Source of the DNA: Clostridiales bacterium
GTDB lineage: Bacteria; Bacillota; Clostridia; Christensenellales; Borkfalkiaceae
Direction: 5' to 3'
NCBI GenBank assembly: GCA_015069365.1
Contig: SVIT01000001.1
Location: 62,001 to 126,000 of the forward strand
DNA length: 64,000 bases
Positions 9,245-53,374 of this stretch are shown here, piece after piece; position 1 is the stretch's first letter; every line of letters starts with the position of its first letter. The translations under genes were made by a program, and so were the position numbers. The notes beneath the pieces are model-generated. The model worked only from the letters and a program-made list of their open reading frames with translations. It was not told the origin of the DNA and searched no databases.

Positions 9245-12200
9245 ATGGAGAATCAAGAAGTAAATAAGACCATTCTTACAGAGCACCGTCGGGTCGTTGG
9301 ATCTCGATATTTCCTTGCTCTTCTTAACTTTCTTGCGATTTTAGCGGGGACTGTTGTTACGCTTCTGTTCGTCATCAAGCGCGGTAGTCCTCCCATCATG
9401 CAGATCTATTTGTATGCGTTGATCGGCATCAACGTGGCACAGATCGGTATCTGCGTTGCGGATTATATCTTAAAGACGAAAGTGGGTTCATACGTGAAAC
9501 AGTTGACAACAGCCTCTTACATTGTAGCAGGGGTTTGGTTGGCAATGTTGATCGTTGAATTGGTGACTGGTACCGTATTATACGGCATTTTCCGTATTGA
9601 TCTTTTTTTGGTAACGGTCATTCAGATCCTCGTTGCGTTGGTCGCATATCTTATGTGGCCGCACATGAACCGTCGCGCGATCGATTCGATGATTCATGCA
9701 AAAGCGAGAAATAACCCTGACAAGCGTCGCGGTATTTCCAAACGTTTTATGGCAATGTACGTATTCTTGTCGCTGTTTATTATCGCGGCGCAGATGGGTT
9801 CGTTGCTTGTATACAAAGTACCCCCTCAGCTGTACGATCTGTTCTCCGAATCAAGAGCGGTAAAATACGAGCTTAACGAAGATGGGGACGGATATGTTGT
9901 GGCTTACGTATATACGGGTACTTCCCCTTACGTAAACATTCCCGCAACGTTTAACAACAAACCCGTTGTAGGTCTGAAAGCGGGCGCGTTGATAGACGAT
10001 GGGTTGATGGAAAAATATAAGGTTACGGAGATTACGTTCGGTACGCCTGCTAAAAATGAAGCAGGGGAAGATATCATGGTCAGCAACCTTCAATATATTG
10101 AGAGCGGTGCAATCGCCAACAATAATATTGAAAAATTGACCATTCCCGATACGGTAGTCAGCATCGAAAAAGACGCGATCGTCAGTACTTCCTTGAAGAC
10201 GTTGGAATATACTGCGCGCGCGCAGTTCGACGCGATGTATTTGTCTTCCTGCGTGGGCTTGGAAACGATTATCATGTCGGGCGAAAACGTCGGTACGATC
10301 GAATCTTTGGACGGCTTGAACGCAACGACGACGATTGAGGTTGATAAAGATATCTACAATCAATACCGCAAGGAAAACTTTGCATACGTAACCAAATTCA
10401 GCCCTATTTTGGACGTGGATGAATTCTGTTTGGACTTCTACACCAACTTCGATTATTATATCGACAGTATCTTCTGCAAAAAGGGCGAAGAAATTTCGCT
10501 TAGATACAGCGATTTGAAAGGCGCAGAGACGCAGGGCGTCAGCCCGGTTGTGGATACGCTTGCGTATATCAAAGACAATCACGAATTAGGCACGCAGGGC
10601 GCAAAAGAGGCAAGCGCATTCCGCGGTTGGTATTTCGATCCCGATTTCACCACCGAATGCGTATTTACTGAAAACGGCGCAGTCAGCATTAAGGATAACG
10701 CTACTTTGTACGCAAAGTGGATCACGGAATATACGGGTACGCTCAACTGGGGCACGCATCAGCCTGAAGGTTCTCCTTCGTACGTTTACTGGACGGACGA
10801 GGACACCGTTCCTTTCCCCGTAATCACCGACAGAGCAGGGTATGCAAACGGTGTTGAATGGCGTGTTTCCGATACGAAAGAACAAGTTTTCAATTCTCAA
10901 AACTTTTCCAGAAATATTACGTTGGACGCAACGTGGCTCTTGGATAAACCGACCATTGATATCGTCAGCAATTTCGTTGGGAACGGTTTACAGCAAAGCT
11001 ATGATAAAAATATTGTAAACTATACCTATGACGAGACGTATACGCTCGGGTTGGTGGCAGATTATGCACACCCGTTGCATGGTTTAAGCTATAACGGTAC
11101 CAGCACAAATTATTCCTTCTACTGGTCGAAGGTAGGAGATTCTTCTTCCACCAGTACGAACAGCTCCATCAACCTGACGGAAGTTGCGGATACGGGTAAA
11201 TATAAGCTGGAAGTGACCATTTATTCGCCTTATGGCGAAACCGCTTCTGCGGATACGGAAATCGAGGTCACCATTGATAAGAAAGCAATCGACATGGGCA
11301 ACGTAACCCTTCCCGACGATCATGATTCCATGTTCTATTCGGGCGTATTGCAAAAGAGAGCGTACAACGGCACGTTGGGTTCGGATAACATCAAGGTTAC
11401 CTATACCTACTATGACGCTGAAGGGGAATTGCTCAATATTAACAACGGCGTTATGAATGCGGGTGAATATTCGGTCGTTGCAAAATTCGAAAAGAACAAC
11501 CAGGCGGAAGCAGTTAACTATTTGACGAAGACGTTAGAGGCGACTTTCACGATCTTCCCCAAAGAATTGACGTATGAAGGCTGGGCAGGGAACGGTACTG
11601 GCTGGACGGATAACTCTGTTGTATACAACGGCGAAAGCAAACAGTATAAAATGCAGATCAGCGGCGTATTGCCCAATGATAACGTGGAACTGATCTATGA
11701 ACAAAACAGCCATACGGGCTTGAACGCAGGCACGTACGAATCTGTCTTGACGGGTATCAATAACAGCAACTATACGTGGAGTGAAATGATGAGAAATCAT
11801 TCTCGCCAAGTATGGACGATTGAGCAAAAGGAAGTTACCGTATATGCATGGCAGGTTGATAACGGCGCTTGGACGGACAAGAGTATTGTTTACGACGGCA
11901 AGACGCATGGTATCTATGCAGTCATGAACGGTACGGTGAAAGACCAAAAGGTTAATTTCGTATACTCGACCGATCCCACCTACGTGAACAGTGCAGTAAA
12001 AGCGGCGAAGTACAGCGCAAAAATTATCGGCGTAGACGACGCGAACTATTACTTTGACGTGGAGAGCGAAGACGCAGAATGCGCTTGGGAAATTCTCCGC
12101 CGTGAATTGAGCGTACAGTTCGCGACTCAAAACTTGACGTATAACGGTTTAGACCAAGGTATCAACGTCACGATCGGTAATTTTGTAAAAGAGGAATTTG

Positions 12201-15200: not shown

Positions 15201-18148
15201 ACAAGGCAGAGGCAACGGTAACCAACGCCTGCGGTACGGACGTTGTAACGGTCAACAGCTATGAAGCGAATACAACGTCGAAGTACGGTTCGATCGGCGA
15301 AAATACCAACGCCACTACGTATGCAGGTATATATAAAGTGAAAGCAGCGGGGCTTTCTAACGCCAACTATACGTTGGAGGGTGCAAGCGACGTTGAGCAA
15401 ACTTTGACGGTTGCACAGCAAAAGGTTACGGTGGCATGGAACGATAATTCCGACGTGGAATATGACGGTTCTGCGCACAGCGTTTCGGCTGTGATTAAGG
15501 GCATCGAGGATGGGGTTGCTATTCCGGCAAGCTATAGCATAACGCGCGGCATAGAAACAGTCGTTTCGGCTCTCAATGCAGGTACGTATACCTTCAAGAT
15601 TACCAGCCTGAATGATGATAACTATGTCCTTGATTCTTCTATCACGGAAGAGCAACGCAAATGCAGCTTGACGATCAAACCGAGAGTTGTCACGCTTGCT
15701 TGGGACGAAGACACCTTCACGTATGACGGCAATACGCATGCGTTGGCGGTTATTGCATCCAACAAAGTCGGCAACGACGCGGTAGGGTTTACCTACACGG
15801 CACAAAAATTGAGTGCGAACGGAAATATTGAAGCAAACAGCAACAGCGCAATCACGGTTGGTCAGTACCAGATCAACGTTAAGACTGTGACGAATGCTAA
15901 CTACACGTTGGAAGGCACGTCCTCGAACACAGCGGGTACGCTTACGATCAATCCTCAGAAGGTTACCATTACGTGGCCTACAACGACCTCTTGGGTCTAT
16001 GATGGTATGGTTCATTCCTTGATCCCGACCGTAACGGGTAGCTATCGCGGTGTGAATATGGCGGTGAACTTCACGTACGACGGAAACGGTAATACACGTA
16101 CGAACGAGGGCTCGTTGACTGTGAAAGTGGCTTCCCTCAGCGATCCTAACTATACGTTGGAGGGCGTAACCAACGCTTCGTCGATATTGACGATTGCACC
16201 TCGTCCTATAGAGTTGGTATGGAACGCGCAGACGGTGGAATTTGACGGCGATGCGCATACGGTAACGGCAAGCATCAAGAATAGAGTTATGGGCGATACG
16301 GTCAACTTGACCTACGATCATAACGTATTTACCGATGCGGATACGTATACGGTAACGATAACGGCGCTCGATAACACCAACTACACGTTGGTAAACGGCA
16401 AGAACTTGTCCACAACGTTTACAATTGTTCCTCAAAAGGTAAAGATCACTTGGTCTGATATGAACGTTGTATACGACGGCAACACGCATACGCCTACCAT
16501 CAGCGTAGTCGGTGACAAAGACGGTTTACCCGTAGCGTATACGCTTTCGGATACAAACGCATATAAGAACTTCGGTACGTATCCTATGAGTGTAACTTTA
16601 GGCAATTCTAACTACACAACGGACGGCGTAAGTAATGTAGCACAGAGCTTGGTTATCCAACAGAAAACGGTTACGCTTGACTGGACGTGGGATGGCGGCG
16701 CAGAACAGACTTTCACGTATGACGGAAACGCACATACGTTGACGGCAACAGTGAACGGCGTTGTAGCAGGCGATACGGTTAACGTTTCCTACGTAGGCGG
16801 CAACAGCTATACGAATGTAGGAACCTACACGGTAACGGTTAACGGAATCGACAATAATAACTATACATTGAGTGGTGTAACGTCAAAGACGCTTAACATA
16901 GCCAAGAAAACGGTTACGCTTGACTGGACGTGGGATGGCGGTACAGAACGGACTTTCACGTATGACGGAAACGCACATACGTTGACGGCAACAGTGAACG
17001 GCGTTGTAGCAGGCGATACGGTCAACGTTTCCTACGTAGACGGCAACAGTTACACGGATAAAGGAACGTATACGGTAACGGCTAGCATCGACAATAGTAA
17101 CTATGTGATAGACGGCGTAACGTCAAAGACGCTTAACATAGCCGCGAAAACGGTTACGCTTGACTGGACGTGGGATAACGGCGCAGAACAGACTTTCACG
17201 TATGACGGAAACGCACATACGTTGACGGCAACAGTGAACGGCGTTGTAGCAGGCGATACGGTTAACGTTTCCTACGTAGGCGGTAACAGCTATACGAATG
17301 TAGGAACCTATACGGTAACGATTGACGGAATTGACAATAGTAACTATGTGATAGACGGTGCAAGCGAACTGTCGCAGCCCCTTACGATTGAGAAGAGAAT
17401 GGTTACGTTTGATTGGACGTGGGATAACGGTGCAGAACGGACTTTCACGTATGACGGAAACGCGCATACCTTGAAAGCAATCGCGAAGAACGTTGTAGTA
17501 GGCGATACGGTCAACGTTTCCTACGTAGACGGCAACAGCTACACAAATGCAGGCACGCACACGGTAACCATCGGCGGAATCGATAACGGGAACTATGCCT
17601 TTGTTGCAGAGAGCAAGACGTTGCAGATTGACGCGCAGGTCGTGTCGATTGAGTGGGCGAACACGCAGTTTGTATACGATGGCAATGCGCACAGTGCTAC
17701 GGTCATTGTGACCGGTTCGACAGGGGCAGTAGGCTATACGCTTTCTGCGAATAGTTTCACGAACGCAGGCACGTACACGGTCAGCGTAATTGCGCTCACG
17801 AACAGCAACTATACGTTGGACGGCGCAAGCAATACATCGACGACGCTTACGATCACGCCGAGAGTGCTGGAATTCAACTGGACTGTACCCAACGGCGCAA
17901 CGGAAAACGGACAGACGAAATCTTACACGGTAACCCCGAAGAATAAGGTTAGCGGCGACGTAGTCAACGTACAGGCAGAGATTCAGAAAGACGGAGGCAC
18001 CGTCACCAAGATCGTATCGGCGGGCACGTATGAAATCACGGTTACGGGCATCAGCGGTACGGACGCGGCGAATTACACGATCGTAGGGTCTGCAACGCTT
18101 GAAAGCGGAACGTTCACGATCGCTCAAGCGCCAGTAGTGGCAGAATAA
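9245..18148 (+). CDS. Giant membrane-anchored MBG-repeat protein (2967 aa): N-terminal TM bundle, LRR_5-like segment, InlB-like repeat, many MBG repeats
   Basis: SD aaggaggtg. Several N-terminal hydrophobic helices. FRGWYFDPDF...ATLYAKW repeat. Repeated YDGNAHTLTATVNGVVAGDTVNVSYVGGNSYTNVGTYTVTVNGIDNNNY units. Confidence 0.9.
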   Translation: MENQEVNKTILTEHRRVVGSRYFLALLNFLAILAGTVVTLLFVIKRGSPPIMQIYLYALIGINVAQIGICVADYILKTKVGSYVKQLTTASYIVAGVWLAMLIVELVTGTVLYGIFRIDLFLVTVIQILVALVAYLMWPHMNRRAIDSMIHAKARNNPDKRRGISKRFMAMYVFLSLFIIAAQMGSLLVYKVPPQLYDLFSESRAVKYELNEDGDGYVVAYVYTGTSPYVNIPATFNNKPVVGLKAGALIDDGLMEKYKVTEITFGTPAKNEAGEDIMVSNLQYIESGAIANNNIEKLTIPDTVVSIEKDAIVSTSLKTLEYTARAQFDAMYLSSCVGLETIIMSGENVGTIESLDGLNATTTIEVDKDIYNQYRKENFAYVTKFSPILDVDEFCLDFYTNFDYYIDSIFCKKGEEISLRYSDLKGAETQGVSPVVDTLAYIKDNHELGTQGAKEASAFRGWYFDPDFTTECVFTENGAVSIKDNATLYAKWITEYTGTLNWGTHQPEGSPSYVYWTDEDTVPFPVITDRAGYANGVEWRVSDTKEQVFNSQNFSRNITLDATWLLDKPTIDIVSNFVGNGLQQSYDKNIVNYTYDETYTLGLVADYAHPLHGLSYNGTSTNYSFYWSKVGDSSSTSTNSSINLTEVADTGKYKLEVTIYSPYGETASADTEIEVTIDKKAIDMGNVTLPDDHDSMFYSGVLQKRAYNGTLGSDNIKVTYTYYDAEGELLNINNGVMNAGEYSVVAKFEKNNQAEAVNYLTKTLEATFTIFPKELTYEGWAGNGTGWTDNSVVYNGESKQYKMQISGVLPNDNVELIYEQNSHTGLNAGTYESVLTGINNSNYTWSEMMRNHSRQVWTIEQKEVTVYAWQVDNGAWTDKSIVYDGKTHGIYAVMNGTVKDQKVNFVYSTDPTYVNSAVKAAKYSAKIIGVDDANYYFDVESEDAECAWEILRRELSVQFATQNLTYNGLDQGINVTIGNFVKEEFADFELSMFDLTGKSANVDVDVLAKNTVQSTITLSNKALNAGKYTAIIAGLNTSENAELLNNYTLSSTSQEFEIRQRELFIDNEFGSYTYNGLIQSVTVNVTNILPDDLSSFNFSQFKTGETDGAIVAASGSLAAEKYQLVFQGKDAGTYTVSVDEFVNGNNNYKLANVYTDTFRIAKKALTVDSWTLTDKTGAMDEANYTKGQSFSATYNYYGYTVTPVFSGVIDGETVELTLSGNEQTQAKSHTTTAVLDTVAYPNYTMTSAQASWEILPYTVDLSWKVEGLEQTMFVYDGETKTVTPVYTLLGDDTTVFTYVDAAQLIQKNKGDYSVEVKTIENSNYTLGVGTKFDWKIGAQVITLTWNGLNSLTYTGEYQGPGFSLSGFSAEDVDSGTLSLRANTHSNSYVYGTSANTQYFAIDAVNSYSFTGDHGFAVDAGTYKIDSFAVLKNGLVDKNYTIENEFSYEIAKKELTLSGVWSYSNNVSDSGEYLSSTKLIYNKSDYYVTTEIATGLVSRLGTADDIQLAYAKGGVSQVGTYTEEVEGLTGTFEKNYFLNPENSTFEWSIQPKVLVLDWTVEEKTYSGAEQTQNATINYVYNTDTVDDNDGKAYRGDVITLTYTQQHIATAQGNYVVKVAEQLDNPNYIFVEESSNLTCNWSISPKPVTLIWETTSFIYNKQVQYPKAWYVPVGGDKIEVTSYENYENVDAGPHEVTASALGDPNYTIDKTDNKHVKVYSIAKKVLELEWTVNGETDLDIVYDRQVKALVPAATNVFMGDVVNLTYGEHEFTDAGEYAVTVTDIDNGNYTIDGVGNLTQNINIQQAPITFVWKWDGDVEERAFTYDGNAHTLTATASGVVAGDTVNVSYLEGENSYTNVETYTVTVNGIDNDNYSFVKESKTLQINPQKVEITWTGIETLTYDGTAHTLEATVIGKDDRQPVLFAYDVAGNSFTNADKHTVTIDSLSDGNYTLDEAIGVLSKELLINPMIVTLGWSGLTNEYFAGRTYKAEATVTNACGTDVVTVNSYEANTTSKYGSIGENTNATTYAGIYKVKAAGLSNANYTLEGASDVEQTLTVAQQKVTVAWNDNSDVEYDGSAHSVSAVIKGIEDGVAIPASYSITRGIETVVSALNAGTYTFKITSLNDDNYVLDSSITEEQRKCSLTIKPRVVTLAWDEDTFTYDGNTHALAVIASNKVGNDAVGFTYTAQKLSANGNIEANSNSAITVGQYQINVKTVTNANYTLEGTSSNTAGTLTINPQKVTITWPTTTSWVYDGMVHSLIPTVTGSYRGVNMAVNFTYDGNGNTRTNEGSLTVKVASLSDPNYTLEGVTNASSILTIAPRPIELVWNAQTVEFDGDAHTVTASIKNRVMGDTVNLTYDHNVFTDADTYTVTITALDNTNYTLVNGKNLSTTFTIVPQKVKITWSDMNVVYDGNTHTPTISVVGDKDGLPVAYTLSDTNAYKNFGTYPMSVTLGNSNYTTDGVSNVAQSLVIQQKTVTLDWTWDGGAEQTFTYDGNAHTLTATVNGVVAGDTVNVSYVGGNSYTNVGTYTVTVNGIDNNNYTLSGVTSKTLNIAKKTVTLDWTWDGGTERTFTYDGNAHTLTATVNGVVAGDTVNVSYVDGNSYTDKGTYTVTASIDNSNYVIDGVTSKTLNIAAKTVTLDWTWDNGAEQTFTYDGNAHTLTATVNGVVAGDTVNVSYVGGNSYTNVGTYTVTIDGIDNSNYVIDGASELSQPLTIEKRMVTFDWTWDNGAERTFTYDGNAHTLKAIAKNVVVGDTVNVSYVDGNSYTNAGTHTVTIGGIDNGNYAFVAESKTLQIDAQVVSIEWANTQFVYDGNAHSATVIVTGSTGAVGYTLSANSFTNAGTYTVSVIALTNSNYTLDGASNTSTTLTITPRVLEFNWTVPNGATENGQTKSYTVTPKNKVSGDVVNVQAEIQKDGGTVTKIVSAGTYEITVTGISGTDAANYTIVGSATLESGTFTIAQAPVVAE
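16668..17640 (+). repeat. Four highly similar tandem MBG coding repeats (~240-249 bp period)
   Basis: cggttacgcttgactggacgtggga-type repeat starts at about 16668, 16911, 17151 and 17400. Confidence 0.85.
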
Positions 18149-33612: not shown

Positions 33613-36600
33613 ATGAAAAAAATGATAGCAATTTTGGCGGGTATAGCAATGGTTGGTTCGGTGTTTGGCGTTACGGGGGCTTTACGCGTAAAGGCAGACG
33701 AAACGGTGGAGGCAAACCAAGCGTCCGTCACCGTAAACGGTACTACGACGGAATATGCGACGTTGGAGAAGGCGTTTGAATCCCTTCAATTGGACGCAGC
33801 GAGATACGCGACGGTAACTCTGCTTACGGACGTTGCGTTGACAAGGAGCTTATCTACGATGCCCAACGAGCGTACGACCGTGGATTTGAACGGTAAAAAA
33901 GTAACGGGGGGAGCTTTGTTATTTACTGGCACGGACACTGTGAAAGACAGCTCTCAAGAGGGCACGGGCAGCGTTGAGAAGAACTTGGAAGTAAACACGG
34001 ACGCTACGCTTACCGTGAAAGGCGGGCATTTTTACGGGGACTATCCGCTGTATCTTTATGAAAATGCAACGGCAATCGTTGCAGGCGGTAGCTTTTATGC
34101 AGAGAACGACGTTTTATTGAACGAAGGGTCTGAACTTGTATTGAAAAATGCACAGTTCCCCGCAGTAGACGGACAATACGGCGGTTTCGATTTTGCCGAT
34201 TATACGGGAAAGGCGAAAACCTTTGCGGATTTCTTGGACGTGAGCGCGGCGTATTATATCGGTGAAACCAAGGTAGAGGACGCCAGCTCAGTTACAGCAG
34301 ATCAAATCACTTCGGTAAAACAGCAATACGTTGCGACCTACGAGCAGGAGGGACAGCCGACGGTGTATATTACCGACGTTGGGTCGATTAACAATGCGAT
34401 ATATACAGCCAGCCTTTTTGGCCCGCAAAGCTTTAGCTGGGTGGATGATACGATTCCCGCAACGCTGACGTTGTATGCGGACGGGAAAGGGGGATCCATG
34501 ACGCAGACGCTGGAAGAGCTTACGATTGATTTGAACGGAAACGTTATGGCGGAGGCAACGCACCGTGTGGAAACGACTCTCCATTTGATGGATAGTAGCA
34601 CGTATCAAACGGGGTTGTTGGAGAACTGTTCGTTTATGCTTAACGAGTGGGGAGAAGTCACTTCGGAAGTAAATATCACGTTGAACTGTAACAGCTATGA
34701 ATTGTCAATCTATGTGAATACATACGGAAAATTTGTCACAACCGGCGGTCAGCATTACGGCGAGTTTGATCTTTCCACCTATAGTAGTACGACGAGCGCG
34801 CAGATTTCTTTGCAAGGCGGCGTTTACGAGGCGTTATGGACTAATATACAAAAAGCCGAAGACGTGCAGTGTACTGTAACAGATATTTCTGTGATCGGCG
34901 ATCCGCTGAGTAGGACGTGGGATTTGGGGAGTGGTGAAGATTACGCGCTGGGTGACGTGTTGGCAGACGGTTATATGCTGCAATATGAAGACGGCACGTA
35001 TGAAAAGGACTTAGCAAAACACGATATATATGGTCCGTTTACAGTACTTGCTCATGAACACAGCTATATAGGGCATTATAACGCAGATTCACATTGGAAA
35101 GAATGCGACTGTGGCATGATTGAGGCGGGCAGCGAGGGGGAACATAGCCACAGCGGGGACGTTTTCTCCATGGATGAAACGGCGCATTGGTATCCGTGCG
35201 ACATCTGCGGGGCGTATATGTCGTACGAGGGACATGACTACGAAGCGGTTTCGGGTACGCATACGAACGAAAACGGTTATGACGAACATCAAGCGACGTG
35301 CAGAATTTGCGGTTACGAAGGCATGGACAGCTGCATTACGGAATATACAGACAATCAGCCTGCAACGGAAACGGAGATGGGATATTATATCTATGAGTGT
35401 GTTTGCGGTTATACGGAAACAGAAGCGTATTGCGACCATCTTGGCGGCGTCACTTATACGAAAGTAGGCACGGCAGAGGATGCAACGCACGAATATGTTT
35501 GTAATATCGAGGGTTGCGGCGAAACGTGGACGGAGAATTGTGATCGTACCCTGATAGACGAACAGCCTGCAACGGAAACGGAGATGGGATATTATACCTA
35601 TGAATGTGCTTGCGGTTATACGGAAACGGAAGCGTATTGCGACCATCTTGGCAGCGTCACCTATACGAAAGTAGGCACGGCAGAGGATGCAACGCACGAA
35701 TATGTTTGTAATATCGAGGGTTGCGACGCGGTTTGGACGGAAGATTGCTCGTTTGAGTCGGAACCAGTATATCCTACGGACGTAGTTGACGGTTACTACG
35801 TGTATACCTGCGATTGCGGTTATACCTATAACGAAGTTTCAGAGGACTTGACAGCGTTTGGGGATAAAACGTTGGTGACGATCGGCGGGTTGGAAATGTC
35901 TTTGCGCGGCAATGCGTATTACGTAAACGGCGAAAACGGCGGGGTTGGTACGGTACATAGCGAAGCGCCTGCAACCTATCACGCGCACTTGACGTGGGAA
36001 GCGGCGGCGGACGGCAAGCCGATCATTACGTTGGCGGTGAACGGCTTAGATCTTTCCGTAACGAGTGGCAGCGCGTTGATTTTGGCGGATGATGTTGGGA
36101 TCAGCGTAAGCGGCGAAAACAATATCGCGGCAACCTATGACGAAACCTGCATAGCGATCGATATGCTCGGTGATAATGCAATCGTGAGCGAGGAAAAGAA
36201 CGGAACGATGAACGTGACAGTCAACGCTGCGGAAGACGTGGAGGTGCTTGCGCTTAAGGGCAGAGTACTTCAAATTACCGAGGCTGTCTTGAACGTGAAG
36301 TTCAATGCAATCGGCTATGCGATTGACGCGCAGAATCAGTTATTCGTAGATGATTCGACGGTTAGCGTAGAGACGAGTGCGGCAGGCATTGCGGCAAGCG
36401 CGTTCACGTTGGAGTCGTCCACCTTAAACGTAGACATGAAGAATGAAACGAGTGAGGGCGGGGCGATTGAAACGGAAAATTTATCTGCGTATCGCTCGGT
36501 GGTAAACGTTTCCGTTGCGAGCAACGCTGGCATGGCACAAGGCGTTTATGCAGAGGAATATTTGTACGCTTGGCAATCGGAGTTCAAGGTGGAAATAACG

Positions 36601-44924: not shown

Positions 44925-45869
44925 TTATAAAAACCGTCTTGCTTCGATATAATACGACCAACGTTTTTGAGAGATTTGTTCGATTCTCGCATAATCGGAC
45001 GCGGTGTGTAAGATGTAATTATCCCCAAGGTATAAAGCGACGTGGCCAACCCGTTCTATCCCCGTGTTGTTTACGCGGTCTTCATTCGTGAAGAAGATAC
45101 AGTCTCCGCGTTGTAAATCTTTCGGTGCGACGTATTTTCCTTGCTTTATCTGTGTTCTCGTGGTAACGTCGAGTTTCACCCCTGCGCCCTTGTAGAAGAT
45201 ATACTGTATCAAAGAAGAACAGTCGAATTTTTGTGCGGAAAACCCTGCCAGCAGTTTTCCCTTGCCGTTATGAAAACGCACTGCGCCGTACACGTAGGGC
45301 ACGCCCAGCAGTTTATAGCCCTCTGCAATTACGTCTTCCGTTTCGTCATCCTTGGATTTTTCAATGGTGAAGACAGAAGCATAGGACGCGTATACGTACG
45401 CCGTTTGGTTCTTATAATAGGTTTTGTACCAGTTGCCGCTTTGTCCTAAAACGATATAATTCGTTCCCTTTTCCGCGCTGCCGAGGACGGAATAGGACGT
45501 GCCTGCGCCTGAACGAATATTTACGCTGCTGCCCGTGCAACGTATGTACTGCGCCTTGGAGGAAACGGTCGGTGTTTCGGGTGCGGGTGTGGAAGGAACG
45601 GTCGGCTTGGAAACGGGGGGAGTAGGTGTAGGAGTAGGTGTAGGAGTAGGCGTAGGTGTGGGCGTAGGTGTAGGAACGGTTGGTTCGTCCTCTTCTTCTT
45701 CTTCGGTTTCCGAGGAGCTGTCTAGAGAGCTACTGCTGTCAGCGGAAAATTCTTCTGAGGAGGAAATGTCGGAGGAGGGAAGATCCAGGCTTTCCTTGCT
45801 ACAAGCAAATAGGGGAGTCAATAGGGTTAGCGACAGCAAAAATGCTGCCAAGGTTTTTGTTTTTTTCAT
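44925..45869 (-). CDS. NlpC/P60 endopeptidase lipoprotein with SH3 domain and PT-repeat linker
   Basis: Lipobox LTPLFACSKE. SH3 region SVNIRSGAGTSYSVLGSAEKGTNYIVLGQSGNWYKT. KFDCSSLIQYIFYKGAG...RGDCIFFTNEDRVNNTGIERVGHVALYLGD. Confidence 0.9.
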   Translation of the reverse strand: MKKTKTLAAFLLSLTLLTPLFACSKESLDLPSSDISSSEEFSADSSSSLDSSSETEEEEEDEPTVPTPTPTPTPTPTPTPTPTPPVSKPTVPSTPAPETPTVSSKAQYIRCTGSSVNIRSGAGTSYSVLGSAEKGTNYIVLGQSGNWYKTYYKNQTAYVYASYASVFTIEKSKDDETEDVIAEGYKLLGVPYVYGAVRFHNGKGKLLAGFSAQKFDCSSLIQYIFYKGAGVKLDVTTRTQIKQGKYVAPKDLQRGDCIFFTNEDRVNNTGIERVGHVALYLGDNYILHTASDYARIEQISQKRWSYYIEARRFL

Positions 45870-50401: not shown

Positions 50402-51544
50402 ATGAAAACGATTGCTTTAATCGGTTCGACGGGTTCTATCGGCAGACAAGTCTGTTCGGTTGTGCGCCGTCACCCTGAAAAATTCAAGATTAAAAGTATC
50501 GTGGCGAATGCGTTTTCCGAGTTGTTTTTAGAGCAGGTGCGTGAGTTCATGCCCGAATATGCCGCTCTCGCTAATGAGGAGGCAGGGCGTGCGATAGCAA
50601 AGGATATTCCGCAGGGAGTAAAATTTGGCTATGGAGAAAAAGCGGCAGAGGAAGCGATCGCATACGGTGACGTTGCATTTGTCGCGGCGACGGGTTTTGC
50701 GGGGCTGAAATACAGCCTTAAGGCGATCGAGTTAAAGAAGGACATCGCCCTTGCCAACAAGGAAACGTTGGTATGCGGCGGCGAGCTTGTTATGGGCAAA
50801 ATCAAGGGGGCAGGTACGAGTCTAATGCCCGTTGACAGTGAACATTCGGCATTGTGGCAGGCGCTTTCATTTCGTGCAGACGCACCGTTTAGAAGATTGA
50901 TTATCACCGCGAGCGGCGGGCCTTTTTATCATTACAGTGAAGAGCAGCTGCGCTTGGTCACGCCTGCGTCGGCATTGAAACACCCCACATGGCAGATGGG
51001 GGCGAAGATCACGATTGACAGTGCGACTTTGCTCAACAAAGGCTTTGAAGTGATCGAGGCGAGGTGGTTATACGACGCGCCGTTGGAGAAGATTCATACG
51101 ATCGTTCAACCAGAAAGTATCATTCATTCGATGGTGGAGTTCGAGGACGGTGGGATTTTGGCACAGATGAGCTATCCCACGATGGAGTTGCCTATTCAGC
51201 TTGCGCTTACTTATCCCGAACGTTTCGATTGCGGTCTGCAACCGTTGGATTTTGAAACGCTGGGTGCTATTCGGTTTTTACCTTTAGAGAGAAAACGTTT
51301 CCCTTGTTACGATCTTGCTTTACGAGCGTTGGAGTTGGGGGATAACTATCCTTGTGCATTGAACGGAGCGGGAGAAATTGCCGTTCATGCGTTTTTAGAC
51401 GGGCGGATATCTTTCTTGGAGATTGCCAAGACTATGGAAGAGGTTTTGGAAAAGACGGAGCGCATGAAAGCAGATTCTTATGCGGTATTAAAAGAAACAG
51501 ACGCGCGTGCGCGCGCGCTGGCGCGAGAGCTCATTGACCGCTAA
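50402..51544 (+). CDS. dxr: 1-deoxy-D-xylulose 5-phosphate reductoisomerase
   Basis: IALIGSTGSIGRQVCSVVRRHPEKF...PVDSEHSALWQAL...ITASGGPF...MGAKITIDSATLLNKGFEVIEA. Confidence 0.97.
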   Translation: MKTIALIGSTGSIGRQVCSVVRRHPEKFKIKSIVANAFSELFLEQVREFMPEYAALANEEAGRAIAKDIPQGVKFGYGEKAAEEAIAYGDVAFVAATGFAGLKYSLKAIELKKDIALANKETLVCGGELVMGKIKGAGTSLMPVDSEHSALWQALSFRADAPFRRLIITASGGPFYHYSEEQLRLVTPASALKHPTWQMGAKITIDSATLLNKGFEVIEARWLYDAPLEKIHTIVQPESIIHSMVEFEDGGILAQMSYPTMELPIQLALTYPERFDCGLQPLDFETLGAIRFLPLERKRFPCYDLALRALELGDNYPCALNGAGEIAVHAFLDGRISFLEIAKTMEEVLEKTERMKADSYAVLKETDARARALARELIDR

Positions 51545-52095
51545 GCCCCATGACCAAGGGTCAAGGGACGTGGTCCCTTGCGGATTGTAAAGGCAGAGCC
51601 TTTACGACCCCGCGTCAGCGGTTGCGCGGAAGCGCAAAAAGGTACCCTAAAGAGCAACCAAAGGTTGCGTTACTACCGCGTTAGCGGTACAATCGCTATA
51701 GGCAAACGTACACCTTTGCAAAGGGTCAAGGGACGTGGTCCCTTGCGGATTGTAAAGGCAGAGCCTTTACGACCCCGCGTCAGCGGTTGCGCGGAAGCGC
51801 AAAAAGGTACCCTCTAAAAGCAACCAAAGGTTGCGTTACTACCGCACAAGCGGTACAATCGCCATAGGCGAACGCACATCCTTGCAAAGGGTCAAGGGAC
51901 GTGGTCCCTTGTCAGGGAGGTTGAGGGGCAGAGAGCCCCTCGCATACTAGCCCCCCAAAAAGCAACCAAAGGTTGCGCTACTACCGCGTCAGCGGTTACG
52001 CGAAGCGCAAAAGGGTACCCTAAAAAGCAACCAAAGGTTGCGCAATCACCGCACAAGCGGTACAATCGCCGTTAGGCGAAACACCCCTTAACAGT
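51545..52095. repeat. Tandem ~165-bp-period array of short perfect hairpins
   Basis: gggtcaagggacgtggtccctt at 51558, 51723 and 51889. Recurring modules AAGGGACgtgGTCCCTT, TAAAGGCagaGCCTTTA, CCGCgtcaGCGG, GCGCggaaGCGC, GCAACCaaaGGTTGC, CGCCataGGCG. Confidence 0.9.
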
Positions 52096-52117
52096 AAACA
52101 AAAAAAGGAAATAGAAT

Positions 52118-53374
52118 ATGATAGGTAATTTGTTATCATTTGCGAGTGTGATGAAGAGTATCGGCGGCGTTTTGCTGGCGGTACTGATTTTGCTTGCGAT
52201 GATCACCGTGCACGAGTTTGGACATTACGTAGCAGGTAAAATTCTCAATTTTAAGATCAACGAATTTTCCATCGGGTTCGGTCCTGCAATCTTTAAAAGA
52301 CGTAGTAAAAAAACGGGCGAACTGTTCGCGATCCGTGTGATTCCTTTGGGCGGCTATTGCGCTTTTGACGGTGAGGACGGTCTGGAAGAGGAGCAAAAGA
52401 AAGAAACGGTGCAGTCGCCCCTCTTTGAAGAATTCTCTCCTCAATCCCTCGAAAAAGAGGAAAATGACGGGGGCAGGTACGAGACGAAAGAGGAAAACAG
52501 CAAGGATAGATGCGAGGTAAAAAAAGAAAACGAGTATCCCGAACCGAAAGGGGAACAATTCACCGACCAAGCGCCTTGGAAGAGGATTATCGTCTTAATC
52601 GCAGGCGCGACCATGAATTATATTCTTGCGCTTTTTTTGATTATCCTGATGTTTGCCTGCGTGGGAAGACCGATGTATAAGGTGGTGGAAAAGATGCCCC
52701 TTGGTACGGAAGAAACGGCGATATTGCAGGAGATGGACGAGGGGTTGCTCGTCGGTGACGTCATCAAAAAAGTCGACGGAAAAAACGTCTACATGATCAC
52801 CGATTATATGGACATTTTAAACGGAAGAAAGCAGGGTGACGTGGTGCCTGTACTCGTTCTTCGTGGCGGGGAAGAGATTACGGTAGATATGATTTTGCGC
52901 GTGGACGCGAATATCGTCAATATGTCGGATACGAATACGCTGCTCACCGCGATGGGGGTTAATTCCATGTACGCCGTGACGGAGAGAGAGGGATTTTTCC
53001 CCACAATCGGACATTCATTGGCGTATTCGGTTAAGATCGGCGGTACGGTACTGCGCTCTTTGGGAGAATTGTTGACGGGGAAACTCGGGCTGGATTCGAT
53101 GGGCGGACCGATCACCACGATACAAGTCACTTCGCAGGCGGCGTCCAGCGGATTGATGTCTTTCCTCAATATTGCGGCGTTTATCGGGGTCAACCTTGCC
53201 GTGTTTAATCTGTTGCCGATCCCTGCGCTCGACGGTTGTAAGGTCATTTTCTGTATCATAGAATGGATCCGCAAAAAGCCCGTCAACCGCAACGTGGAAG
53301 CAATGATACACTTTATTGGAATCATTTTCCTCTTTGGGTTTGCAATCTTGGTAGATTTGCTACAATTATTTTAG
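52118..53374 (+). CDS. rseP: RIP site-2 metalloprotease
   Basis: ITVHEFGHYVAGKILNFKINEFSIGFGPAIF. PDZ region, C-terminal NLLPIPALDGCKVIF. Confidence 0.95.
   Translation: MIGNLLSFASVMKSIGGVLLAVLILLAMITVHEFGHYVAGKILNFKINEFSIGFGPAIFKRRSKKTGELFAIRVIPLGGYCAFDGEDGLEEEQKKETVQSPLFEEFSPQSLEKEENDGGRYETKEENSKDRCEVKKENEYPEPKGEQFTDQAPWKRIIVLIAGATMNYILALFLIILMFACVGRPMYKVVEKMPLGTEETAILQEMDEGLLVGDVIKKVDGKNVYMITDYMDILNGRKQGDVVPVLVLRGGEEITVDMILRVDANIVNMSDTNTLLTAMGVNSMYAVTEREGFFPTIGHSLAYSVKIGGTVLRSLGELLTGKLGLDSMGGPITTIQVTSQAASSGLMSFLNIAAFIGVNLAVFNLLPIPALDGCKVIFCIIEWIRKKPVNRNVEAMIHFIGIIFLFGFAILVDLLQLF

Follow-up and report, generated by a model that had tools for sequence, protein, structure and literature searches.

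A hairpin array between dxr and rseP probably represents a genus-specific, modular, BOX-like interspersed repeat of Clostridia

Here we describe an array of small perfect hairpins in a Clostridiales bacterium (GenBank assembly GCA_015069365.1), together with the repeat family found around it. The analysed window comprises 64,000 nucleotides of contig SVIT01000001.1 (positions 62,001 to 126,000, forward strand), and coordinates given without a locus name refer to this whole stretch. According to Pfam matches, the window contains the gene run pyrH-frr-uppS-cdsA-dxr-rseP-ylxM-ffh-rpsP-rimM, in which dxr and rseP stand approximately 570 bp apart with the array (51545-52095) in the gap, oriented sense relative to rseP. 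The features of this region, with the unit hairpins numbered hp1 to hp7, are as follows.

50402..51544, + strand: dxr, upstream of the array (Pfam DXP reductoisomerase domains)
51556..51720, + strand: unit 1, defined by hairpin parse, direct repeat with unit 2 and a covariance-model tail hit at 51642-51708; hp1 51562-51580, hp2 51587-51605, hp3 51610-51621, hp4 51622-51637, hp5 51654-51668, hp6 51674-51689, degenerate hp7 at about 51693-51704
51721..51886, + strand: unit 2, defined by hairpin parse, direct repeat and a tail hit at 51808-51874 (70 bits, E 1.3e-18); hp1 51727-51745, hp2 51752-51770, hp3 51775-51786, hp4 51787-51802, hp5 51820-51834, hp6 51840-51855, hp7 51859-51871
51887..52013, + strand: unit 3, chimeric, defined by hairpin parse and a tail hit at 51950-52013; hp1 51893-51911, alternative hp2 (GAGGGGC-agaga-GCCCCTC) 51923-51941, hp5 51962-51976, hp6 51983-51996, followed by an hp4 remnant (gcgaagcgc)
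52014..52082, + strand: extra tail copy, defined by hairpin parse and a tail hit at 52015-52082; hp5 52027-52041, hp6 52048-52061, hp7 52066-52079
52118..53374, + strand: rseP, downstream of the array (Pfam Peptidase_M50, with a weak sub-cutoff PDZ match)

The extra tail copy ends 36 bp before the start of rseP, and a promoter-like match (10/12) overlaps 52088-52117, and no terminator-like site was found on the coding strand. In RseP itself, a charged, Glu/Lys-rich stretch of about 60 residues (52360-52565) leads from the N-terminal metalloprotease part to the next membrane segment. The window also holds three tandem repeats unrelated to the array, at 16662-17568 (240-bp x 3.7), 35349-35725 (207-bp x 1.8) and 45619-45675 (a GGAGTA-type short repeat).

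The first-pass annotation of this sequence had reported more than a dozen perfect inverted repeats with a periodicity of about 165/166 bp, and both statements were borne out. The array contains 18 perfect hairpins (stem of at least 5, loop of 3-5); in 500 dinucleotide shuffles of 51545-52095 the average was 1.6 (sd 1.2) and the highest count 6. Among 551-bp tiles drawn across the window, two overlapping array tiles held 15 and 14 hairpins, the next best 6 and the median tile 2. All previously listed hairpins were located, at 51562-52079, some of them with longer stems than had been given (CAAGGGAC-gtg-GTCCCTTG, TTGCGC-ggaa-GCGCAA and GTAAAGGC-aga-GCCTTTAC). The units are spaced by 165 and 166 bp, a periodicity that spans two and a half units only; units 1 and 2 share a 93-bp block with 100% identity, and unit 3 is chimeric, carrying its own type of hp2 and two copies of the tail. 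RNA folding of the array gave z-scores of -10.2 for the + strand and -9.3 for the - strand. An Rfam search returned no family matching the window array or the arrays at eight other loci; a lysine riboswitch (RF00168, 75.5 bits) lies near another array copy, outside the array itself (L090:5021-5201).

Copies in the same genome follow one constant order of slots: hp1, hp2, optional hp3/hp4, hp5, hp6 and hp7. A unit is approximately 120-170 bp long, carries five to seven hairpins and starts with agggt followed by hp1 of the form CAAGGGAC-nnn-GTCCCTTG. The hp2 slot is filled by GTAAAGGC, GAGGGGC, GTGGGC and other alleles. In the conserved tail, a linker ending in cccataaaa precedes hp5 (GCAACC-nnn-GGTTGC, with the variants GCAAGC, GCAACT, GCAAAAC and GCAAGGC), hp6 (ACCGC-type) and hp7 (CGCC-type). 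Units are arranged as single arms, head-to-tail arrays and head-to-head palindromes of approximately 250-400 bp, and inverted hp1 ends are present in the head-to-head copies (L095, L099, L100) and absent from single arms and tandem arrays. The middle hairpins are swapped between copies, as 27 classified hp1-to-hp5 spans of this genome comprise 21 slot combinations, an approximate figure, as a few of these spans come from palindrome arms that were read along the opposite strand. Both the unpaired linkers and the slot order are kept across about 25 species.

Used as a DNA query against its own genome, the array matched 41 times, at about 20 places. The counted copies probably understate the true number, because this genome is available as a 1.35-Mb draft bin (74% complete) in which several copies are located at the ends of contigs (C28, C49, C58, C19). 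A covariance model of the unit tail (R1; 31 sequences, 69 positions) gave 44 hits in the same genome. Counting this one, 26 of the 61 genomes searched had hits, and all 26 belong to a single uncultured gut genus of Clostridia, with none in the other 24 of the 25 genera represented. In 396 genomes of the order, with at most 12 candidates per genome scored, multi-copy hits were confined to this genus, and seven genomes outside it had one weak hit each. By itself, the hp1 head was further found in G044, a species from a different family. Thus the family is dispersed through genome and genus, in agreement with the palindromic-unit expansion proposed earlier, and the window array is not a single-site artefact. 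The hp1 alleles are species-typical, for example with gat loops in G009, gaa plus a G·U pair in G005, and tta in both G004 and G011; such a pattern would follow from amplification, within each species, of source copies of its own. Phage and plasmid collections searched with the array, as well as viral contigs scanned for the hp1-hp2 pattern, gave no match, and literature searches returned no matching repeat described in Clostridia.

Other hairpin repeats were met during these searches. A weak tail-model hit in another family (L246) was rejected as a different hairpin array; this one (L246:1350-1650) and L084:6491-6681, both from other Clostridia, have varying stems and a constant linker (cttcac or atttcac) and form a separate kind of variable-hairpin array. 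In one genus member (G028; L179:7930-8190 and 11700-11900; L120) arrays of the family adjoin a second hairpin repeat, CCTTT...AAAGGgagctGTCATGC...GCATGACtgagggattgtc, and a further palindrome, AAAACTTAACcatgGTTAAGTTTT, recurs around arrays at L043:60-175 and L122:1470-1650.

The stems of the tail covary, as the structure-level constraint suggested in the first reading would have it. Paired cells made up 94.6% and 94.8% in two overlapping groups of tail hits, of 102 and 134 distinct hits respectively, these figures being inflated by a seed choice that favoured perfect hairpins. Double-changed cells numbered 184 and 267, against 52 and 61 in shuffles, and the covariation score reached 0.351 and 0.361, compared with no more than 0.08 for slid partners. 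One hp5 pair is GC in 48, AU in 46, CG in 38 and UA in 2 of 134 copies, with zero intermediates; despite the seed bias, a search for hp5 anchored on its outer bases only agrees with this, giving 56/56 Watson-Crick combinations at that pair. Folding of the canonical strand would predict G·U in excess of A·C, and hp1 and hp2 fit, with GU 52 vs AC 3 (13 vs 3 distinct) in an anchored search of hp1 and 11 vs 0 in hp2. In a whole-stem R/Y-pattern search, where G·U and A·C were equally allowed at one pair, plus one free mismatch, the counts were GU 22 vs AC 2; by distinct allele and genome they came to 9 vs 2 (p = 0.065), a weak polarity. It is reversed in hp5 (GU 2 vs AC 7), and hp7 has no GU excess, its polarity being absent or obscured by alignment register. 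These counts hint that the GU-rich strand of hp1 and hp2 acts single-stranded and, as judged from sequence variation, strand-specific folding of the repeat is likely.

The insertion site varies among species. The dxr-rseP gap is at most 64 bp, or the genes apparently overlap, in 72 of 79 relatives with both genes called; the wider gaps measure 279 bp (L022), 91 (L028), 1592 (L029), 81 (L033), 2161 (L040), 342 (L043) and 129 (L068). At this junction L043 (4041-4400) carries a different array, in which about a dozen GTTGACA...TGTCAAC hairpins occur with ccgtgc and ctgcga linkers in alternation. Within the same gene run of other species, arrays of the repeat family were found at cdsA-dxr in antisense orientation (L010), at ffh-rpsP (L048, L036, L022), beyond rpsP (L048), at rseP-ylxM (L024) and upstream of frr (L043). 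Among 102 arrays from about 15 species, with genes called by a simple ORF caller (minimum 150 aa), no clear orientation bias relative to neighbouring genes was found: single-direction arrays between co-directional genes were 19 sense vs 13 antisense, so no required relation to the neighbour's transcript is seen. Five arrays apparently located inside ORFs were examined and discarded as such. For four of the ORFs Pfam gave no match, and they look spurious; in the fifth (L234) the Ribonuc_L-PSP domain covers only residues 57-173 and thus lies downstream of the array, and the start of this ORF was probably placed too far upstream.

Several explanations of these observations have to be weighed. Hairpins acting as cis-regulatory RNA, which set the expression or stability of the gene downstream (rseP in this case) and are kept paired by selection for that role, would suit the strong covariation with some strand polarity, the sense orientation of the window array, its end only 36 bp before rseP and the promoter-like match beside it. 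Nevertheless, arrays stand at varied junctions beside many genes and in both orientations, the dxr-rseP gap is near zero in most relatives, and neither an Rfam match to the array nor a terminator-like site on the coding strand was found, which makes such a role unlikely. The specific modulation of rseP envisaged by the first-pass annotation is left unsupported, since this junction is nearly gapless elsewhere and arrays occupy other junctions or the antisense orientation. Alternatively, the hairpins may be a mutational by-product, perfected and multiplied by template switching (quasi-palindrome correction) and unequal crossing-over without any folding requirement. The exclusively matched changes at the hp5 pair and the lack of GU excess in hp5 are just what one would expect if one arm templates the other, and tandem units, commonly lost unit parts and several array-rich genomes in which no transposase was found point the same way. 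Against it speak the excess of GU over AC in hp1 and hp2 and the conservation of unpaired linkers and slot order, and local correction does not explain dispersal to unlinked sites; we consider this origin rather unlikely.

As candidate mobilisers, seven families were searched: Y1/RAYT, reverse transcriptase (RVT_1), TnpB, IS110, rve, DDE_Tnp_1 and IS256. All seven were absent from G005, G006, G009 and G022, drafts of 72-89% completeness with 26-63 tail hits each, and one rve-domain gene was the sole match in the own genome. Inspection by eye of about eight palindromic copies revealed no target-site duplication, and no autonomous parent element with matching ends was seen among the own-genome matches or fetched loci of these incomplete genomes. 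Repeats of REP/REPIN type mobilised by RAYT (a Y1 HUH transposase) are likewise palindromic, intergenic, of high copy and partly head-to-head, and the possible importance of one strand recalls IS200/IS605 mobility. Y1_Tnp (PF01797) is, however, absent from the own genome (G000) and from the array-bearing, near-complete G010 (94% complete), G036 (96%) and G034 (93%), and Y1-positive genus members mostly have few or no arrays, with the exception of G028, G030 and G011, which have both. As the units are moreover multi-hairpin elements of 120-170 bp and not 20-40-bp REPs, the link to REP/RAYT lacks support and is very improbable; from the REP-like expansion suggested at first, the dispersed palindromic units are retained and the RAYT relationship is dropped. 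Equally little credence can be given to an ordinary DDE-type MITE, an IS deletion derivative with the hp1 end as its terminal inverted repeat. The inverted hp1 ends of palindromic copies and the rve-domain gene would agree with it, but many copies are single arms devoid of inverted ends, the tested DDE families are missing from the four array-rich drafts, and neither target-site duplications nor an autonomous copy in the fetched loci came to light.

We therefore favour, with a probability of about 0.68, the reading that the array represents a composite insertion of a modular, BOX-like small interspersed repeat specific to the genus, and a passenger rather than a switch of rseP. The repeat is best read as non-autonomous and would be moved in trans. 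Its copies would arise in each species from a small number of source alleles particular to that species and insert into intergenic gaps irrespective of the direction of neighbouring genes. Stem pairing would persist because folding of one strand, as RNA or single-stranded DNA, is required, presumably at some stage by which the element propagates or is tolerated. The dxr-rseP copy may then be a read-through passenger inside the pyrH-frr-uppS-cdsA-dxr-rseP run, neutral for rseP. A more particular route, in which no known transposase or reverse transcriptase class takes part, folded single-stranded copies (RNA or one-strand DNA) are reinserted by host replication or repair and whole hairpins serve as exchangeable modules, seems improbable to us.

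This is a large repeat family for which we found no prior description. Much of one genus carries it at tens of copies per genome, its covariation is unusually clean, and in several genomes rich in copies the common transposases were not found. It could be used as a natural system for studying why hairpin repeats in bacteria stay folded and by what means repeats spread when no transposase is evident. It is also a warning that intergenic structure of this kind should not readily be taken for gene-specific regulation.

Among known systems, REP/REPIN sequences with their RAYT (PMC3116915, PMC3733652) resemble the Clostridia repeat in being palindromic, intergenic and sometimes paired in inverted orientation. 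They are defined by a 20-40-bp unit with a single imperfect palindrome and by a Y1 transposase, whereas the units described here are several times longer, contain many hairpins and occur in array-rich, near-complete genomes that have no Y1 transposase. MITEs such as Correia elements, RUP and Nezha (named in PMC3049150) share the short, non-coding, structured character and, with the palindromic copies, the inverted ends; the Clostridia repeat differs in having no recognised target duplication or parent IS, and in its common single-arm and tandem forms. The closest likeness is to BOX of Streptococcus pneumoniae and S. suis, modular intergenic repeats with a variable number of internal modules and strong predicted RNA structure, which are dispersed at many loci, show no clear insertion duplication, have an uncertain mobiliser and were judged by their describers to be parasitic and unlikely to serve one host role (PMC3049150). 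Modularity, structure, intergenic dispersal (here 41 DNA matches and 44 tail hits in the own genome) and a fixed module order with variable internals are common to both, and no target duplication was recognised by eye in the Clostridia repeat. BOX comes from an unrelated organism, and the Clostridia repeat departs from it in its hairpin-per-slot design with five to seven small perfect hairpins, in repeated whole units and head-to-head palindromes, and in stem alleles that covary widely between species. We thus regard the Clostridia repeat as a new family that appears to work like BOX, likened to it by organisation and not by boxA/boxB/boxC sequence homology.
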